Below, piece after piece: positions 1,422 to 64,000 of a stretch of 64,000 nucleotides of DNA. Source of the DNA: Oehlia diaphana (taxonomy: Eukaryota > Glomeromycota > Glomeromycetes > Glomerales > Glomeraceae); contig QZLH01000445.1 of NCBI GenBank assembly GCA_003833135.1, positions 17,624-81,623 on the forward strand, read 5' to 3'. The notes under the pieces are model-generated. The model saw only the letters and a program-made list of their open reading frames with translations, ran no database searches and was not told where the DNA came from. Position 1 is the first letter of the stretch. Each line of letters opens with the position of its first letter. Position numbers and translations under genes: made by a program.

Positions 1422-4400
1422 TTACCGATTCCTTTCTAATTTCTTCAACATTCCAATTAAACTTTTTCCATTTTTTTCGCAATTCTGTATTAGATACTGT
1501 TCAAATTCCTCACGAATATTTTTTAATTGCTGTGTAATTGGCATTTGACCATCTTTCGTCACCAATAAAGGATTCAACAACAAATCAAATAATTTTTGCC
1601 AAAGCTCTCCTTGCCAATATCGTTTAAATGAAAGTATTGGTTTATATTTCTTCACTGCCATTGTCGCTGGTCCAGACATAAAAGTATTTGTTTCTACTAA
1701 TACTGGAGTAATTTGCATATATCGATTATGCAGCATGCAGTGTACTATACCAGCCAATCCATAATAATCAGCCTGCCATTTCCAAGGCCTACCTTCACGC
1801 ATTTCAACGCAATCTTGATCATCAGTCACCCACTCAGCGATAAATTTCATATCGTCTGGAAATAAAGTCACATCAATAGAACGCCCAAAATCAATTATTT
1901 TGATTCCTTTCTTTGACCATCCATTCGCACCGGATGGGTCATATTGTATATCCCACTCTTCTACCGGTTCTAATCTCAAAAGGCAGTTATCAGCTTTGAT
2001 ATCACCGTGTATTATTCCGGCTTCGTGAATCGACTCAATTGTTTTCAATAGTTCTATTGTAAAGAAAAATACCAAAAGTTCGTCTAACTGTGTATTCTCC
2101 CTTTTAGCTCGATTAACGGCATCCAAAATCGTTCCTTGATGAACAAATTCCATCACCATATAACTTTCATTCTTGTAATAATACAATGAATGTACAGAAA
2201 TAATTGAATCAATAGTTGGGGAGTTGATTCTTTCTTGCAGTTTACGTATAATGTAAAACTCCAAGGCACTTGAAGGTGTTTCACTCTTTAATGCACGTGA
2301 TGATTTCTTTTCGTTTTGGTTAACTGCATAATCTTCTGTGTCCAAAACGAGATAGACTTTGCCAAATCCGCCTTCTCCGATTTTTTGGCGTATAAGAAAT
2401 GAATCATTAAAGAATGTAACGGGTTCTTCAATGTTTACTAAAACATTTGTACATCGTCGGCCTTGTGTGTCCCAGCAACGTGCAAGTTTCTCTATTTTTG
2501 ATCCATTATTGCAAGTCTGTTTTCGAGCGTCATAAAATCCTTTATAATGATTTAATGGAGGTTGTAAAGCGGCTAAAATTTGTTCTATAACTTTGGGATC
2601 AATTGGATTACATGGATTCGAAAGCTTTGGAAAAGCAGGAGGTTCTAGCATGTTCGATTCGTGATCTACTGCTGTTAATTTCATTGGAGATGCCAAATCA
2701 AGCTTAATATCATCGACTCTGGGTGTATTTATAAAAGATCTTACATTCATAATATTAAATTCTTCGGAAGTATAAAATGGAGTAGTCTTATACTCATGAC
2801 TTGTTTCTTGTATTGGCGTCATAGGGTCAAAGAACTTCGCTTTATTTTCACGGTTAATTAAATCTAGTGATGTACTGTTCACATCATTTTCTTGATCATT
2901 TACCTTACATCCGTTCGTTCTTGAAGGGGTTTGATGGTAACCAGATTGTGTTGTTTGATATACAGTGGAATTTGAAGTCGTCTTTTCATCATCATCATCA
3001 TTATTATTTTGAAGGTCTTTTAATGGTTGAGTAAAAGTAAACATTTCTATTATGTCTGATAAAGCAGCCCTTGTACATATCGTGGGAGATGGCTTTTTCT
3101 CAATTTTTTCTACATATGAAGCTAGGATTTGCCGTAAGAAATTGGATTAGAAACATATCAATTGCAAAGAGTAAATAATTTAAAACCTACGTGTTGGACT
3201 TGTCTCGTGAATTGGTACACTGAATTCTGTAACCTTACTTTCTCTTTTTCCTAACTTCTCTTCGACCTTTTCACTGTAATTACTTTCAAGATACCCCAAA
3301 GTTTTAGCTCTCTTTTCTTCAAAGGAAATTTCTTCGCCATTTTCATCATAAAAATTATCGATTTTTACATAACATTTTTCTTTCGGCCCTAATTCGTATC
3401 GTTTAGCTTGTTTTTTCTCTTGAGAAACCGAAGATGTAGGCTGTGGTTTGTTACTATTTTCATTCTGCGAAAACTGACTTGACTTTGTTTGAGCTATATC
3501 CGAAGTTATTTCATGTTTATTCTGTATATCCACTAACTTTTTAAGAGCTTCCGTCAAACAATTGTTTTTATTATTCAATGACTGTATTTCAACTTGTTCA
3601 GTAGCTTGACGAATATTTGTTGACGAATTTGAACTACATTCAATTGACTAAAAAAAAACCAGTATAAACGTAAAATTAACAGATCAAGGCATTGACGTAT
3701 GATTTTTCTGTATACCTTATCGTGATAAATTTCAAGCTTGGCCGCCATCGGGGCGTGAAACTTTTTATTTTGAGGCAAAGTTACGCCTTTCCATTGTTCT
3801 GCTTCTTGAATATCTTCTTTTTTCCTAGACAAATAAGTTCCGTAACTATTCCATATTGAAGTTTTATTATTTGTGGATGACAAAGCAGAATTCCCTATTT
3901 CGCCATTAGGATCGTAGAAGATGTTTAATTTTTCATTGTTGTCGGAAGTGCTAATTTGTGAACTTGCACTCTCAATGTCGGAGACAGTATATGAAGTAGG
4001 ATTCCTTTGATGGAAAACATTCATTGGCTGTGATCGGGTAGAAGATGAGGAAGATTTAGAACCAAGAATTGTTCGTGAATTTAGATTCAATTGTTGCGGT
4101 ATTGGTGGTGTTGGTATTGCTACAGTATTGGTGTTAAGGTTTACATCCATTAACGTCATACGCGTTAAAAATTGTTTGTAGCGTTTATTCAGACGTTCAA
4201 GCGGTTGTGCTCCACGGCTTATTCCCGTTTCATAGATTTCGTTTGCTTCTTTATAGCTTTCATTTTTATTAATATTTTTAGTCTTTATCAATTTTTAAAT
4301 TATAAAGAACAATATCTTACCATTTCATCGTTTCCATTATCTCAGCATATTCTTCATAAAAAGTGGCCAGGTCTAAGCCAATTCCATTAGATTTCAAGAA

Positions 4401-58660: not shown

Positions 58661-59840
58661 TTTAAATATTAAGTATTACTAATATATTAATTTTAAAATA
58701 TTAAAAGATTTTTTGTAATAATATTATTTTGCTATAATTATTTTAAAAATTTTTTATTAAATAACTATACTTTTGAAATATATATAAATAATATAATTTC
58801 TTTTTTATATAAATATAAAAATATTTAATAATAACTTATTATTGTTTATTACTATTTATTTATTTTTTAGAATTTTATTATCACTTTTTTATATTTTAAT
58901 TTCTTGTTTTTTTTCAAATAATAATATAATAACTACTTAAAAAAAAAAATTTTATTTTATTAAAAGAAACTAAAATTTTCTTTAATATTATATTTAATTA
59001 TTAAATATACTATATATATTAATAATAATTTGTAATAATATTATTTTTTTATAATTAATTTAAAAATTTCTTATTAAATAACTATATTTTTTGTTTTCAA
59101 TGAAAAATATATATAATTTCTTTTTTATATAAGTATAAAAATATTTAACAATTGCTTACTATTATTTATTACTTTTTTATATTTAATTTCTTGTTTTTTC
59201 ATTATCCAAATAATAATATAATAACTGTTTAAAAAAAAAAAATTAAAAAAATTTTATTTCACTAAAAGAAAGTAAAAATTTTCTTTAATCATACTATATT
59301 TAATTATAAAATAATTTGTAATAAAGGTTATTTTATTATGATTATTTATTTTTATAATTTAAAAATATCTTATTAATTAACTATACTTTTATTTTCAATA
59401 AAAAATATATATAATTTTTTTTATTGAGTGTTTCTAATTTGCTCTTCAGATGAAATTCCTTAGGTGATTTCACTTATATATAATATATATAATTTATTAA
59501 AAATCAGATGATTTTACCTGTATAAAAAAAATTGAAAATCTTATTATATGATTTTATATTTATTGATTTTTAAATTTTAAATGAAATAGTTAAAGTAGCC
59601 AATACTTATTATTTATTTATTTATTTGATATTTAAAGGATAGCTATATAACATTTTATTATTAAAGAAAAATTCACAAATCATTATCAGTTAGTTATTTG
59701 AATATTGTAAAATATAAATGATTAACTTGATTATATTTATTACAATATTTTTCTTTCTTATTACTGATTTGATTTATTACAACCTCTTTTTCATATTTCT
59801 TATTGGTGATATTAGTTATATTTCAAATATACTTTACTTT
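58661..59840. other. AT-rich repeats, no gene
   Basis: Loosely repeated blocks of about 250 bp (around 58680, 58960 and 59220) share TTTTTTATATAAATATAAAA and TCCAAATAATAATATAATAA-type segments with 54240-54680. No coding sequence is seen. Confidence 0.5.
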
Positions 59841-61700
59841 CTTTTTTTGGAGTTCATCACATAATTTGTATCTATTTAGTTGTCTACCTTTATATGTTAC
59901 TCTTAATGGATTACCAATATGCATAGAAACCAGTTCAGATAATTCTACTTTTGCATTTTCAATAAACTTTTAATTTGATTAACAAATTCATCAACTTTAT
60001 CAGCTTGAATAGCCAAATCAAGAGCCTTTTTTGCATATCCTATACCAAATCTAAATTTTTGTTTAGAATCCTCCAATATATAATATTAGGCATTTGCTTA
60101 AAATTTTTGAGGTGTTAAAATGATAATAATTGATGAGGTAAAGGTTGTTCTAACTCATTTAGTTCACTTTTTCCAATATAATATACTGATATCATATTTT
60201 TCTCTTGTTCAATACTATATTTATTATTGTTATATTACTGTTAAAGAATAATTAAAATATAAAATTATACATTAGCTAAATAAGACATAATTTGAAAAAA
60301 ATGCTTACACACAATTCTTCTATTGATAAGCCAAAGACAAATGTATAAATGTAAACTATCATTAAGAAGAACAATATGTTGGAGATCTGATTTTTGCCTA
60401 CGATGTCTAATCACTTTCCATACTTGTTAAATATTATTGTGAAATATATTTTCAATCAATAAAGAAAATAAAGATTAAGGTTGATTATAATCATTTTCTT
60501 TAGCTATTTCTTGTTGGTAAAAATCATCTTCTATCTAAAAATTTTTTTTAATTGTTAATAATTGTCTTAATTATCTTCATTAATAATAAAATTAGGACTT
60601 ACTTCTAAAAGTGGTACCCAATCTTCAATTAATATGGCATTATAATATAATAATTGAGCCATTTGATTATGTTGCTTTTGAAGAATTTGTGGTGTTAGAT
60701 ATTTTTGCAGAATCTTATCAAGGTTTGAAAAATATTCATCCATTATAGATGGTATTTCTTTTGTTAAAATTTTGTTTTTATATTCACTTAACATTACTTT
60801 TTTTGATTGTTAATCAAATATTTTTTGAATTTCTCTAACAACATCAGTCAAATGTGAAGATCTATTTAATTTATCTTTAACTATCTTATTAATTACTTCT
60901 ACCTATTGTGTACTCTGAATTCCTACAGTAAAATTTTGATTAATAGTATAATTTGCCCAACTATGCTTACAAGAATATAAAACTCTTATAAGATATTATT
61001 CATAGACTGGAAATTCATTGATAAGTGCTTTCCATTTTATTTCAAATTTTTTATAATATAAAGAGTTGCATATTATTAAGAATTTAGTACAAAAAAATTC
61101 AAATTGATCATATAGCTTTTCTTTGAGTTTTTTTCTTAGATTTAAACTTCAGTTATATAAAAAATATAATAAAAATGCCGAATTTTTGGATAATTATTCC
61201 TAATAGCTGATATTAAAGCCAGATCAGCATTAGAATATAAGACTATTGGCGTAATATCATATAAATTCTTTAATTCTTGTAAAACCTATGAAAAGGTTAC
61301 TTCAGTTTTATCTTCCAAATTTATGACTATTACTATTGAATTTCTAAAATTGTTGTCAATTACTATAATTAATAATAGCATTATATTAAACTGATTTATT
61401 TTAGATGTTATATCAATAATAACTATATCATGATATCTCTCATAAAAATTAACTTGATCAAAAGACATCTAGAATAACAAATACAATCTTCTTTCTTCAA
61501 AATCAAAGTGTGACTTTATAATCTATCTTAGATTATCATCCTTTTTCAAATATAATTCAGTAAACATCTGGCATACAATTTGCACCATAACGCCTGCCAC
61601 TTATTAACAAATTGATCAGTAGAAATTGGCAACAAATCGGTAAAATCAAATTGATGATTGTTAATAAACTAATAATTATTATTACCGATTTTTGTACATT
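59841..61700 (-). pseudogene. Decayed MULE/FAR1-type transposase
   Basis: Minus-strand pieces in order, interrupted by stops and frameshifts: SFDQVNFYERYHDIVIIDIT (61465 downward), VINLEDKTEVTFS, LQELKNLYDITPIVLYSNAD, PKIRHFYYIF, EYKNKILTKEIPSIMDEYF (60790 downward), a SWIM-like VLLNDSLHLYICLWLINRRI (about 60350) with its zinc ligands eroded, and RFGIGYAKKALDLAIQADKV (about 60050). This is the order of a MULE-class transposase followed by a SWIM zinc finger. It is not functional as read. Confidence 0.7.
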
Positions 61701-61830
61701 TAGCTGATTCTAATTTTATAATAATTTATTAATTAAATCTTATTAATTTGTTTTATTAAAAATTACATATTAAATTAATATATAGCTATCTATCATCTAT
61801 CTATATACACCATCCACCGTCCACCATCTA

Positions 61831-62967
61831 TCATCTACTATCCATCATCCACCCATCATCCTCACCTAACCTGATAAAAATTTGTGAAAATCTACAAAAA
61901 AAAGGAGAAAACGGTTAGTAACCTATTTTTTAAATAAAAAAATTGAAGTTTCAAAAGAAACTTACCTGATCTGATAAAATCTGAAAGGAAACCCTACAAA
62001 AAAAAGTAAAGAAACAGTTAGTTCGTTTCTTTAATAAAAAAAAAATGTTTCAAAATTTGAAACTTACCTACCCATCCAATAAAGTTCGAAGAGGAAATCT
62101 AAAAAAAAGAAGAAACAATCAGTTTAATGTTTCTTTGATAATAAAAATTAAAGTTTTGAAATATATTCAAAACTTACCTCCAAATCGATAATGAAAACTT
62201 ACAAAAAAAAAAAAGAAACGGTTAGTTCGTTTTTATAATAAAAAAAAATAAGTTTCAAAAATTTAAAACTTACCCACCCATCCAATAAAGTCCGAAGAGA
62301 AAATCTATAAAAAAAAAAGAAGAAACTATTAGTTTAATGTTTCTTCGATAAAAATAAATCAAAGTTTCAAAATATATTCAAAACTTACCCCTAAATCGAT
62401 AATGAAAACCTATAAAAAAAAAAGAAACGGTTAGTTCGTTTTTTTAATAATAATAAAAATAAAGTTTTGAAACACACATCAAAACTTACACGTCTATTTC
62501 TTAATAATAGTATGAAAAAGAACCTACAAAAAAAATAAAGAAACGGTTAGCAAACTGATTCTTTTATAAAAAAAAAACTCAAGTTTTGAAATATTTCAAA
62601 CCTTACCCGATCCATCAACCTGAAGTGAAAGTCTACAAAAAGAAGAAAGAAACAATTAGTAAATCGTTTCTTTTAAGTTTTAAAATTAAACCAACTTCGA
62701 AACTTACTATCAACCAATCTATATCCTAAACCTATATTATACTTCGAGAGCGTCTTGATCTTACAAAAAAAGAACAAAAACGTTAGCAAATGTTTCGTTA
62801 AGTAAATTAAAAAAAGTTTCTAACTCTCCTATTGAAGTTCCCATGTGTTTAAAAGCCGAAGAACTAAAAAAAAATAATTTTGAAATTAGTTTATTAAGAT
62901 GAAACAAGGGAAATCAAAAACATTAAAAACTTACCAAAATACCGTATCCAAAGGTCTGAGGCATCAC
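61831..62967 (-). CDS. Micro-exon gene with introner-like repeated introns (putative)
   Basis: Eleven exon-like islands: 62967-62935, 62863-62825, 62759-62708, 62632-62607, 62523-62490, 62409-62389, 62304-62274, 62197-62178, 62098-62068, 61993-61966 and 61891-61866. They are 20-52 nt, separated by ten introns of 65-84 nt, nearly all starting GTAAG and ending in a T-run plus GTAG, TTAG, TAAG or TATAG. Islands 6 to 11 form one open frame in correct phase, ending at a stop at 61831-61833 if the last donor is not used, and encode a duplicated motif, VFIIDLG-IFSSDFIGWV then VFIIDLE-ISSSNFIGWV. Island 1 has an ATG (62964) in frame with island 3 if island 2 is skipped; islands 4 and 5 need alternative choices (a 13-nt exon 4, or skipping 5). 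Best model about 106 residues, no known family. Coding status is inferred. Confidence 0.5.
61866..62934 (-). repeat. Array of ten look-alike short introns
   Basis: On the minus strand the better-preserved members share GTAAGTTT, a short inverted repeat right at the donor, an AT stretch, a second short inverted repeat around ACTAAC (branch-site-like), and a final T-run ending in AG. The two stems differ in sequence between introns but often stay paired, for example AAGTTTTGAA/TTCAAAACTT against AAGTTTC/GAAACTT. The first two and the last are the most divergent. Sequence similarity is much greater between these introns than between most of the exons they separate. Confidence 0.75.
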
Positions 62968-62969
62968 CT

Positions 62970-63125
62970 AAAAAGAAGGAAGAGTGAATGGATGAAAGAA
63001 AGGAGAAAGGGGAAGATGAAAAGTGAGAGGGAAAGGGAAACGAAAAAGTGAGTATAAAGGGGGAAGATGAAAGAGTGACGAAGGAGTGTGTGGAAAAATA
63101 AAGTGAATGGAAAGGGGAGACGAAA
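62970..63125 (-). promoter_or_regulatory. Pyrimidine-rich leader/promoter of the micro-exon gene
   Basis: The plus strand is almost pure purine (GAAAGGGGAAGATGAAAAG and similar), so the minus strand carries a C/T-rich tract of about 150 nt just upstream of the first exon island. C/T tracts are common near fungal transcription starts. Possible TATA-like sequence lies near 63155-63165. Confidence 0.4.
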
Positions 63126-63234
63126 GTGTGAGAAAAAAAAAAGTTTAAATAAGGTTAATATATAGTATCGCGTAATGCACGTAATACATAATTACAAAAT
63201 ATCGACCAAAAAGTTAATGGTCGATTTTTTTTCA

Positions 63235-63305
63235 TTGATTTTACCAATTTTTGCCATTGGTCAAAAAATGTGATGAATCACATGACCAATTGGCAAAAAT
63301 TATGC
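63235..63305. repeat. Imperfect palindrome
   Basis: CCAATTTTTGCCATTGGTC (63243-63261) pairs with GACCAATTGGCAAAAATT (about 63284-63301), and ATGTGAT pairs with ATCACAT in between. It would form a long hairpin and may be a small MITE core. Confidence 0.7.
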
Positions 63306-63756
63306 CGAAAGCTCTTAACGGTCAAAAGTTTTGATTTTGACCAGTGAAATTATGTAAGAGATCATAATATTCAAATATCAGGTTAAAGTAAAATTATATG
63401 AAGAATCAAATAATTCAAATGTTGGATTAGAAGAATTATGATAGGTATTAAATAATAGGTTAGAATCATTATATGAAGAATTATAATAAAAGTTGAATAG
63501 CAGATCAGAACCATTATATAAAAATTTATTACTATCCAGGATAATATTTTCCATTATAAGTAATTTTAAAGTTGTGTAAATGAAAATTGGTTAGATAAAA
63601 CAATCAAAAATAATATATAATATAATTTAATTCTTTAAAAAAATAAATTTGTGATAAAAAGTATAAAATACAAAAAATAGCTAATAAGTATGTAAAAGGA
63701 AGAGTTTCAGAATTTTTTTAAAATAGATGGCTTAGATTACATCATTTAGACTGTTC

Positions 63757-64000
63757 CAAATTAATTGTTTGTTTAACGTCCAGGCCTTTTGAAAAAATTA
63801 AGGGGGAGGGGGGCTTAAGTTAAACAAACCAAATAAATAAACATAGGAAAATTTGAAAATTTCAGGCAAAATTTAAAGGCACTATATGTTTATTAGCTTT
63901 TAAATTTTTTCAAAAATAGAGGGGGTATTTGTTAATATGTGTTTATTAAATCTCAAATTTTTTAAAAAATAGAGAGGGGGGAGGATGTTAAACAAATAAT
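63757..64000. mobile_element. MITE-like element at window edge
   Basis: Left end ATTGTTTGTTTAACGTCC (about 63759) and right end GGATGTTAAACAAATAAT are near-perfect inverted repeats, each followed inward by a G/C-run (AAGGGGGAGGGGGG; AGAGAGGGGGG) and a TTTTTTGAAAAAATT-type motif. Further internal copies (GTTAAACAAACC, TTTGTTAATATG) suggest nested ends. The window stops at the right end. Confidence 0.55.

Follow-up and report, generated by a model that had tools for sequence, protein, structure and literature searches.

The window (the whole stretch of 64,000 nucleotides that was analysed) carries on its minus strand what is likely a spliced micro-exon gene, lodged in a decayed, non-autonomous transposon of the CACTA type, and most introns of this gene are predicted to form two hairpins. 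The transposon ends and the repeated two-hairpin design are read directly from the sequence; from these we infer transcription, the role of the hairpins, and the course that the growth, spread, and decay of such arrays would take.

Organization of the micro-exon array

Eleven exon-like islands (E1–E11) and ten predicted GT...AG introns (I1–I10) were confirmed in the sequence between positions 61866 and 62965 of the minus strand, in agreement with the original prediction of ten introns of 65–84 nt alternating with exons of 20–52 nt. They are listed below together with the predicted upstream region; intron lengths are those after a 4-nt shift of two donors, and z is the score of the fold relative to dinucleotide shuffles.

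62985..63170, minus strand: TATATATTAACC and then a CT-rich tract, a predicted promoter with leader (by eye; kept in copy C1492)
62935..62965, minus strand: E1, 31 nt (5' limit uncertain)
62864..62934, minus strand: I1, 71 nt, weak family member without donor stem (z −0.26)
62825..62863, minus strand: E2, 39 nt
62760..62824, minus strand: I2, 65 nt, donor GTTAG, acceptor TAAG vs. TAGG in two copies (z 0.71)
62708..62759, minus strand: E3, 52 nt
62633..62707, minus strand: I3, 75 nt, donor and branch stems (z −3.2)
62607..62632, minus strand: E4, 26 nt
62524..62606, minus strand: I4, 83 nt (z −0.59)
62490..62523, minus strand: E5, 34 nt; in copy C521 it contains the stop codon of the annotated 52-aa product
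62410..62489, minus strand: I5, 80 nt, both stems (z −2.7)
62389..62409, minus strand: E6, 21 nt, duplicate of E8
62305..62388, minus strand: I6, 84 nt, both stems (z −3.2)
62274..62304, minus strand: E7, 31 nt, duplicate of E9
62198..62273, minus strand: I7, 76 nt, both stems (z −1.4)
62178..62197, minus strand: E8, 20 nt
62099..62177, minus strand: I8, 79 nt, both stems (z −3.2)
62068..62098, minus strand: E9, 31 nt
61994..62067, minus strand: I9, 74 nt, both stems (z −2.3)
61966..61993, minus strand: E10, 28 nt
61892..61965, minus strand: I10, 74 nt, donor stem (z −2.4)
61866..61891, minus strand: E11, 26 nt, followed by a (GATG)-like purine tract

The order of donor, branch motif, T tract, and AG is kept in all ten units; the intron finder itself requires these signals, so that only the succession of unit after unit lends weight to their order. 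In pairwise alignments, introns I2–I10 form the single hairpin-forming family that had been claimed (z of 3.4–17.9 for all pairs), to which I1 is marginal (z −0.6 to 3.7). The exons are more diverse. Most neighbouring exons had been considered unrelated, which is correct for E1, E2, E3, and E5, but not for E6 and E8 (z 8.9) or E7 and E9 (z 12.4), which are duplicates, nor for E4, E7, E9, E10, and E11, which are weakly related (best links z 2.5–4.8). The two pairs of duplicates bear out the proposal that a two-exon unit was duplicated to give part of the array, and multi-unit stretches align to shifted units.

Stops are present in every frame across all eleven joined exons. Islands 6–11 do join in one frame, as had been noted, but the observation is uninformative, since stops are lacking in two of the three frames and shuffling gave as good a result in 844 of 3000 trials; the open frame of E6–E11 was thus rejected as evidence of coding.

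Folding of the introns

The donor stem is present in the MFE folds of eight of the ten introns (absent in I1 and I2), and roughly seven (I3–I9, folds read by eye) have the branch motif within or beside the loop of a second stem. The main observation of the original description holds. When compared with dinucleotide shuffles, the window introns are better paired (mean z −1.85, median −2.34), with the exception of I1, I2, and I4, which fold no better than the shuffles. The statement that other introns of the window do not carry such stems is true of the 12 controls, predicted introns of this window with an open frame of at least 50 codons on either side, for which the median z is −0.07 (Mann-Whitney p = 0.003 against the array introns). 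In a MAFFT alignment of the array introns the stem arms were misplaced, which left RNAalifold without any pairs, and this test was replaced by the arm-wise contingency tests described below.

The same design is clearer in the CpG-intact array of C679, in which all 11 introns have a donor hairpin. Eight of these hairpins extend into the end of the exon, with the donor in or beside the loop, and three begin at the donor. A branch hairpin with a CTAAC/CTAAT motif is clear in ten introns and weak in the eighth. Folded with 12 nt of exon, the C679 introns have a mean z of −5.5, all 11 lying below −3; without the exon flank the mean is −2.5, with the eighth intron at +1.09. The letters of the stems vary from one intron to another (AACCAAGATTC/GAATCTTGGTT, GTTTCGCAACG/CGTTGCGAAAC, and GGAACGGTTA/TAACCGTTCC, among others).

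The transposon that carries the array

Elements of the CACTA (CMC-EnSpm) type are characterized by terminal inverted repeats (TIRs) starting with CACTA/G, a 3-bp target-site duplication (TSD), a Transposase_21, and subterminal repeats. The following features were located around the array.

61575..63346, minus strand: putative CACTA-like non-autonomous transposon copy with the array, its 3' end missing (truncated at ~61575)
63334..63346, minus strand: 5' terminal inverted repeat, CACTGGTCAAAAT
63228..63346, minus strand: terminal region common to CACTA elements with Transposase_21 (41 genome matches)

The copies compared, one region from each of 38 other contigs listed with array matches, lose their homology at 63345–63350 and, on the other side, at 61575–61578 in most of the copies reaching so far. 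The 3' part of the element is present in 13 of the 38 regions, eight of which have an inverted ATTTTGACCAGTG (0–2 mismatches) 110–130 nt past the breakpoint of the window copy. The ends, CACTGGTCAAAAT ... ATTTTGACCAGTG, start as CACTA-type TIRs do (CACTA/G), and the window copy keeps the 5' one only. The TIR 14-mer CACTGGTCRAAATY has 121 matches in the genome (56 + 65), against one for the reversed control. Both ends were read in eight other elements, of which five show an exact 3-bp TSD (C1492 ATA, C467 TCA, C1031 TTT, C330 TTT, and C20 TAA, the two ends of C20 flanking a run of N and their pairing being assumed), each with a probability of ~3% by chance, as calculated for an AT-rich genome. 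In C91 two of the three bases agree, and C344 and C117 have no TSD.

A 125-nt 5' end of the window type has 41 matches in the genome, some of them partial and that of C430 in two pieces. Nine have a related array no more than ~3.4 kb away (C443, C521, C1031, C1492, C266, C467, C117, C475, and C1225; C1031 and C1225 are nearly identical around the array and may be one locus). Four others are followed downstream by one of the 28 PF02992 matches of the genome, in each case on the strand that is antisense to the array orientation, within 3 kb and over the cut-off in C68, C207, and C1021, and ~7 kb off and below the cut-off in C1134. The three transposase-bearing elements that were read share their terminal ~119 bp with the window element at 91–92% identity; they contain broken Transposase_21 frames and no array, and PF02992 is over the cut-off in two of the five ORFs scanned. 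Motifs resembling TATATCGGGTACC are seen, by eye only, at both ends of the C330 element. On the grounds of the TIRs, the TSDs, and the ends shared with Transposase_21 elements, we conclude that the window holds a CACTA-like element of the non-autonomous kind, lacking its 3' end. The Plavaka transposase (PF18759, 24 matches) was discarded as a candidate, as it shares no contig with the 5' ends of the window type (compared by eye).

Three further observations concern the surroundings of such elements. The 3' breakpoint of the window element is adjoined by degenerate transposase-like coding sequence (59600–61575, minus strand), MULE-like by eye only. Positions 63754–64000 of the window belong to another repeat, which is also present in L021 (C657), at 90% identity, and in L042 (C330), where a part of it is 73% identical. 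Locus L048 (C20:43405-51246) consists of two facing TIRs with TSD taa and an interior that is mostly N.

Distribution of the intron design

The array is not confined to one locus, as had been supposed: the genome contains 57 matches to it, the window included, as well as 351 matches to the sequence pattern of the donor hairpin, against six for the reversed control. The pattern of a perfect branch hairpin matches 35 times, and the control not at all. The design with donor and branch hairpins recurs with other exon families, and the order of donor, branch motif, T tract, and AG is repeated in arrays at many other loci. Among the first 100 of the 351 donor matches listed, 18 are small palindromes matched on both strands, and 50 of the remaining 82 are in clusters of two or more. 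Most of the 12 regions around perfect branch hairpins (11 single matches and one cluster) hold, by eye, further arrays of short exons. The palindromes, such as GTAAGTTTCATTTTGAAACTT, are 21 nt long (30 nt in C22), matched at the same place on both strands, and located in C4, C12, C13, C22, C23, C84, C85, C99, and C157.

Only one of these 82 donor hairpins has an exact TIR less than 10 kb away, a test that misses decayed ends and scored C117 and C163, both loci of the window family, as misses. Most arrays of the same design may therefore lie outside transposons, and no general link to transposons is claimed for the other array families, for which transposon ends were seen in C330 and C91 only. 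The C330 element (4510 bp, full TIRs, TSD ttt) has 45-nt exons of a quite different kind arrayed on one strand and, on the opposite strand, a short array with exons of ~32 nt. Of the array introns in the C91 element (5.7 kb, TIRs, imperfect TSD, partly N), four lie on one strand and two on the opposite one. Two C679-type arrays adjoin PF02992 matches at a distance of ~0.6 kb in C1458 and ~1.4 kb in C23:

C1458:9468-11961: C679-type array beside a Transposase_21 match
C23:22896-25586: C679-type array beside a Transposase_21 match

C638, with an array at 10.9–15.8 kb and a Plavaka match at 19.4 kb, may resemble this arrangement. L064 (C457) is another CpG-intact array, with exons of ~40 nt and five perfect branch hairpins; by eye, it cannot keep a single frame because its unit holds TAG in one frame. 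The L062 array was dismissed as coding, having stops in all frames. The 100% identity of C679 and C821 was not accepted as proof of recent transposition; the two may be one locus represented twice, since C821 ends at the N gap of C679.

Predicted splicing and products

In silico splicing of the C521 copy at I1–I4 yields a 52-aa ORF, from ATG to stop, which is the Rhizophagus diaphanus gene model C1646_771720 (100% over 52 aa, the sole match); an independent gene model thus uses four of the predicted junctions. To judge from this one 52-aa identity, the window is probably from Rhizophagus (Oehlia) diaphanus. In C679, joining 12 exons of 24–47 nt (11 introns) yields a frame that is uninterrupted over 146 codons. 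By itself this is modest evidence, as an equal result was obtained in 67 of 3000 shuffles of the exons and in 159 of 5000 joins with jittered phase. All three frames are free of stops in four of the twelve exons, and the frame that is used varies between models. The C679 product matches nine proteins, all from R. irregularis (best E 9e-15). The five R. irregularis models that were read use or skip micro-exons in differing ways and frames, and they are consequently not proof of splicing. Two models from this species, P0002 and P0003 (C679; L056/L065), have a TLD-like start, below the cut-off (E 0.06 and 0.093), that runs into the same micro-exons. No Pfam family was found for the spliced products of 52 and 146 aa. 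Taken on sequence grounds, the window array is likely a spliced micro-exon gene.

Covariation and decay

Paired changes in the stems had been taken as a hint of selection on structure. At the CpG pairs this is not so: the two arms of the donor stem change independently (Fisher p 0.44 and 0.33 in 109 hairpin matches of the window and the loci retrieved for comparison), as do those of the branch stem (p 0.22 and 0.11 in 105 candidates), and CpG covariation was rejected as a sign of selection. A p value of 0.011 for an A/G–T/C pair of the branch stem was not relied on, resting on three G–C cases among 105. Covariation is present at two of the four inner positions, which were compared across subfamilies in 75 of 95 distinct hairpins, the 20 with short loops being left out. 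Inner pair 1 occurs as A–T (33), C–G (20), and T–A (9), so that 62 of 75 are Watson-Crick, compared with 27.5 ± 3.8 after permutation (0 of 5000), and inner pair 3 occurs in two Watson-Crick forms (53 vs. 37.5 permuted, 0 of 5000), the test being inflated by the kinship of the sequences. At pair 4 the covariation is not significant (398 of 5000 permutations), and pair 2 shows none because its 5' side hardly varies. These patterns can be read as dead copies losing their stems at random, with source lineages that would differ by paired changes.

The divergence at G/C sites is similar in exons and introns of two close copies, with 44/144 vs. 46/176 in C521 (p = 0.39) and 35/121 vs. 30/138 in C1492 (p = 0.20), and therefore gives no sign of selection on the window copy, which is probably dead. 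The higher G/C content of the exons accounts for at least part of the better match among introns.

Proposed mechanism and alternative explanations

If the array is a spliced gene, its transcription would begin at a promoter close to the 5' TIR, and the hairpins of each intron would mark its own donor and branch point, whatever the exon length, and would also stop near-identical neighbouring introns from pairing with each other. The 20–52-nt exons would be joined by intron definition across introns of 65–84 nt, a mode that suits the array because exon definition would need longer exons. Growth of the arrays would proceed by tandem duplication of exon-plus-intron units through unequal exchange between similar introns, which would explain the co-duplicated exons, and transposition would spread them. 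The resulting copies would lose G/C sites without detectable selection, wearing the exons faster than the AT-rich introns. More tentatively, we can speculate that Rhizophagus possesses a distinct class of spliceosomal introns, the hairpins of which would display the donor and the branch point and free the spliceosome from exon definition, and that genes may be built and reshuffled from 20–50-nt exons with CACTA transposons as vehicles.

An unspliced tandem repeat, in which palindrome-rich units of a transposon merely resemble introns, is an unlikely alternative to such a gene. Palindromes can arise by DNA-level template switching, the closely compared copies are decayed with independent CpG changes in their stems, and the CpG-intact L064 array cannot, by eye, keep a single frame; these points speak for such a repeat. 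It fits less well with the four junctions used by C1646_771720, with the C679 reading frame, with hairpins placed at the donor and the branch point, or with splicing signals ordered in ten units and at many other loci. One of the readings in the original prediction was that of introner elements amplified inside one locus; introns would have copied themselves into a continuous exon and cut it small. We consider this very unlikely: the array is not confined to one locus, it forms the inside of a CACTA-like transposon, and homologous exons duplicate together with their introns (E6/E8, E7/E9, and the shifted multi-unit alignments), unlike in the insertion of introners into existing exons. The introns are indeed far more alike than the exons, and fungal introner-like elements are described in PMC8469720 as structured or carrying inverted repeats. 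However, the excess divergence of exons between close copies is gone at G/C sites, and most of the 12 regions around perfect branch hairpins hold, by eye, further short-exon arrays. Single introns beside the unrelated exons E1, E2, E3, and E5 may nevertheless have been inserted in this way.

Equally improbable is a selected host family of micro-exon genes, effector-like and of the SP7-like or schistosome MEG type, to which transposons would be incidental. The CpG-intact C679 array and the joining of such exons to a TLD-like start in P0002 and P0003, if below the cut-off, would agree with it. In the window family, however, transposon ends are present and exons and introns decay alike, few exon lengths are multiples of three, and the 52- and 146-aa products have neither a Pfam family nor, by eye, the SP7 repeat motif.

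Comparison with known systems

Schistosome MEGs contain symmetric micro-exons, with lengths that are multiples of 3, and we know of no hairpin-intron feature in them. The window array is similar to MEGs in that such genes consist largely of very small exons, and different in that only two of its 11 exon lengths (39 and 21) are multiples of 3. The suggested reading as a micro-exon gene is supported by the gene model at one copy (C521), but the exon lengths do not follow the pattern of schistosome MEGs. CACTG terminal repeats, 3-bp TSDs, and transposase relatives sharing the terminal 119 bp are common to the window element and CACTA (CMC-EnSpm) transposons, whereas the window copy is unusual in having no transposase and in carrying a micro-exon array with hairpin introns. 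Fungal introner-like elements were reportedly described by van der Burgt in 2012.

According to PMC8469720, introner-like elements and stwintrons of fungi likewise form families of similar introns with inverted repeats and predicted stable folds. The introner-like elements treated there insert at new positions in other genes, and internally symmetrical stwintrons have terminal inverted repeats of 45–55 nt, unlike the two short separate hairpins of the window introns; in the window array, moreover, exon and intron duplicate together. DNA transposons with TIRs and TSDs are linked to introns also in PMC9860276, where the transposon is itself the intron, whereas here it contains a whole exon–intron array; the main text of that paper mentions neither 'Rhizophagus' nor 'Glomero'. 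SP7-like effectors of Rhizophagus are repeat proteins of the same fungi, with the repeat motif Y[KR]Rx[AP]x[AP] (PMC11333574). By eye, neither of the two spliced products (52 aa and 146 aa) contains this motif, which speaks against the repeat-exon effector that had also been envisaged; a signal peptide and a conserved first intron are further marks of SP7-like effectors. For R. irregularis, PMC11075540 reports a prevalence of the Plavaka group and states that two-thirds of transposable elements are unclassified; the words 'intron' and 'exon' have no occurrence in its main text. Among the matches listed in the literature search, with subscription papers mostly outside reach, there was no description of these arrays, and those listed for microexons in Rhizophagus included only work on Rhizoctonia.

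If spliced as predicted, the arrays would represent a natural system in which RNA hairpins, and not exon signals, mark the splice sites, with a donor pattern that occurs 351 times in one genome and could easily be tested by stem swaps. They would also show concretely how transposons can generate new micro-exon genes and spread them in obligate plant symbionts.

Elsewhere in the window, an intact frame of a checkpoint Ser/Thr kinase, which by inference is BUB1-like, is located at 1422–3044 on the minus strand. Its matches are from Glomeromycotina, with none named Rhizophagus among the 120 of 399 matches listed, and its identity to proteins of Dentiscutata, Racocetra, Gigaspora, and Scutellospora is 59–66%.
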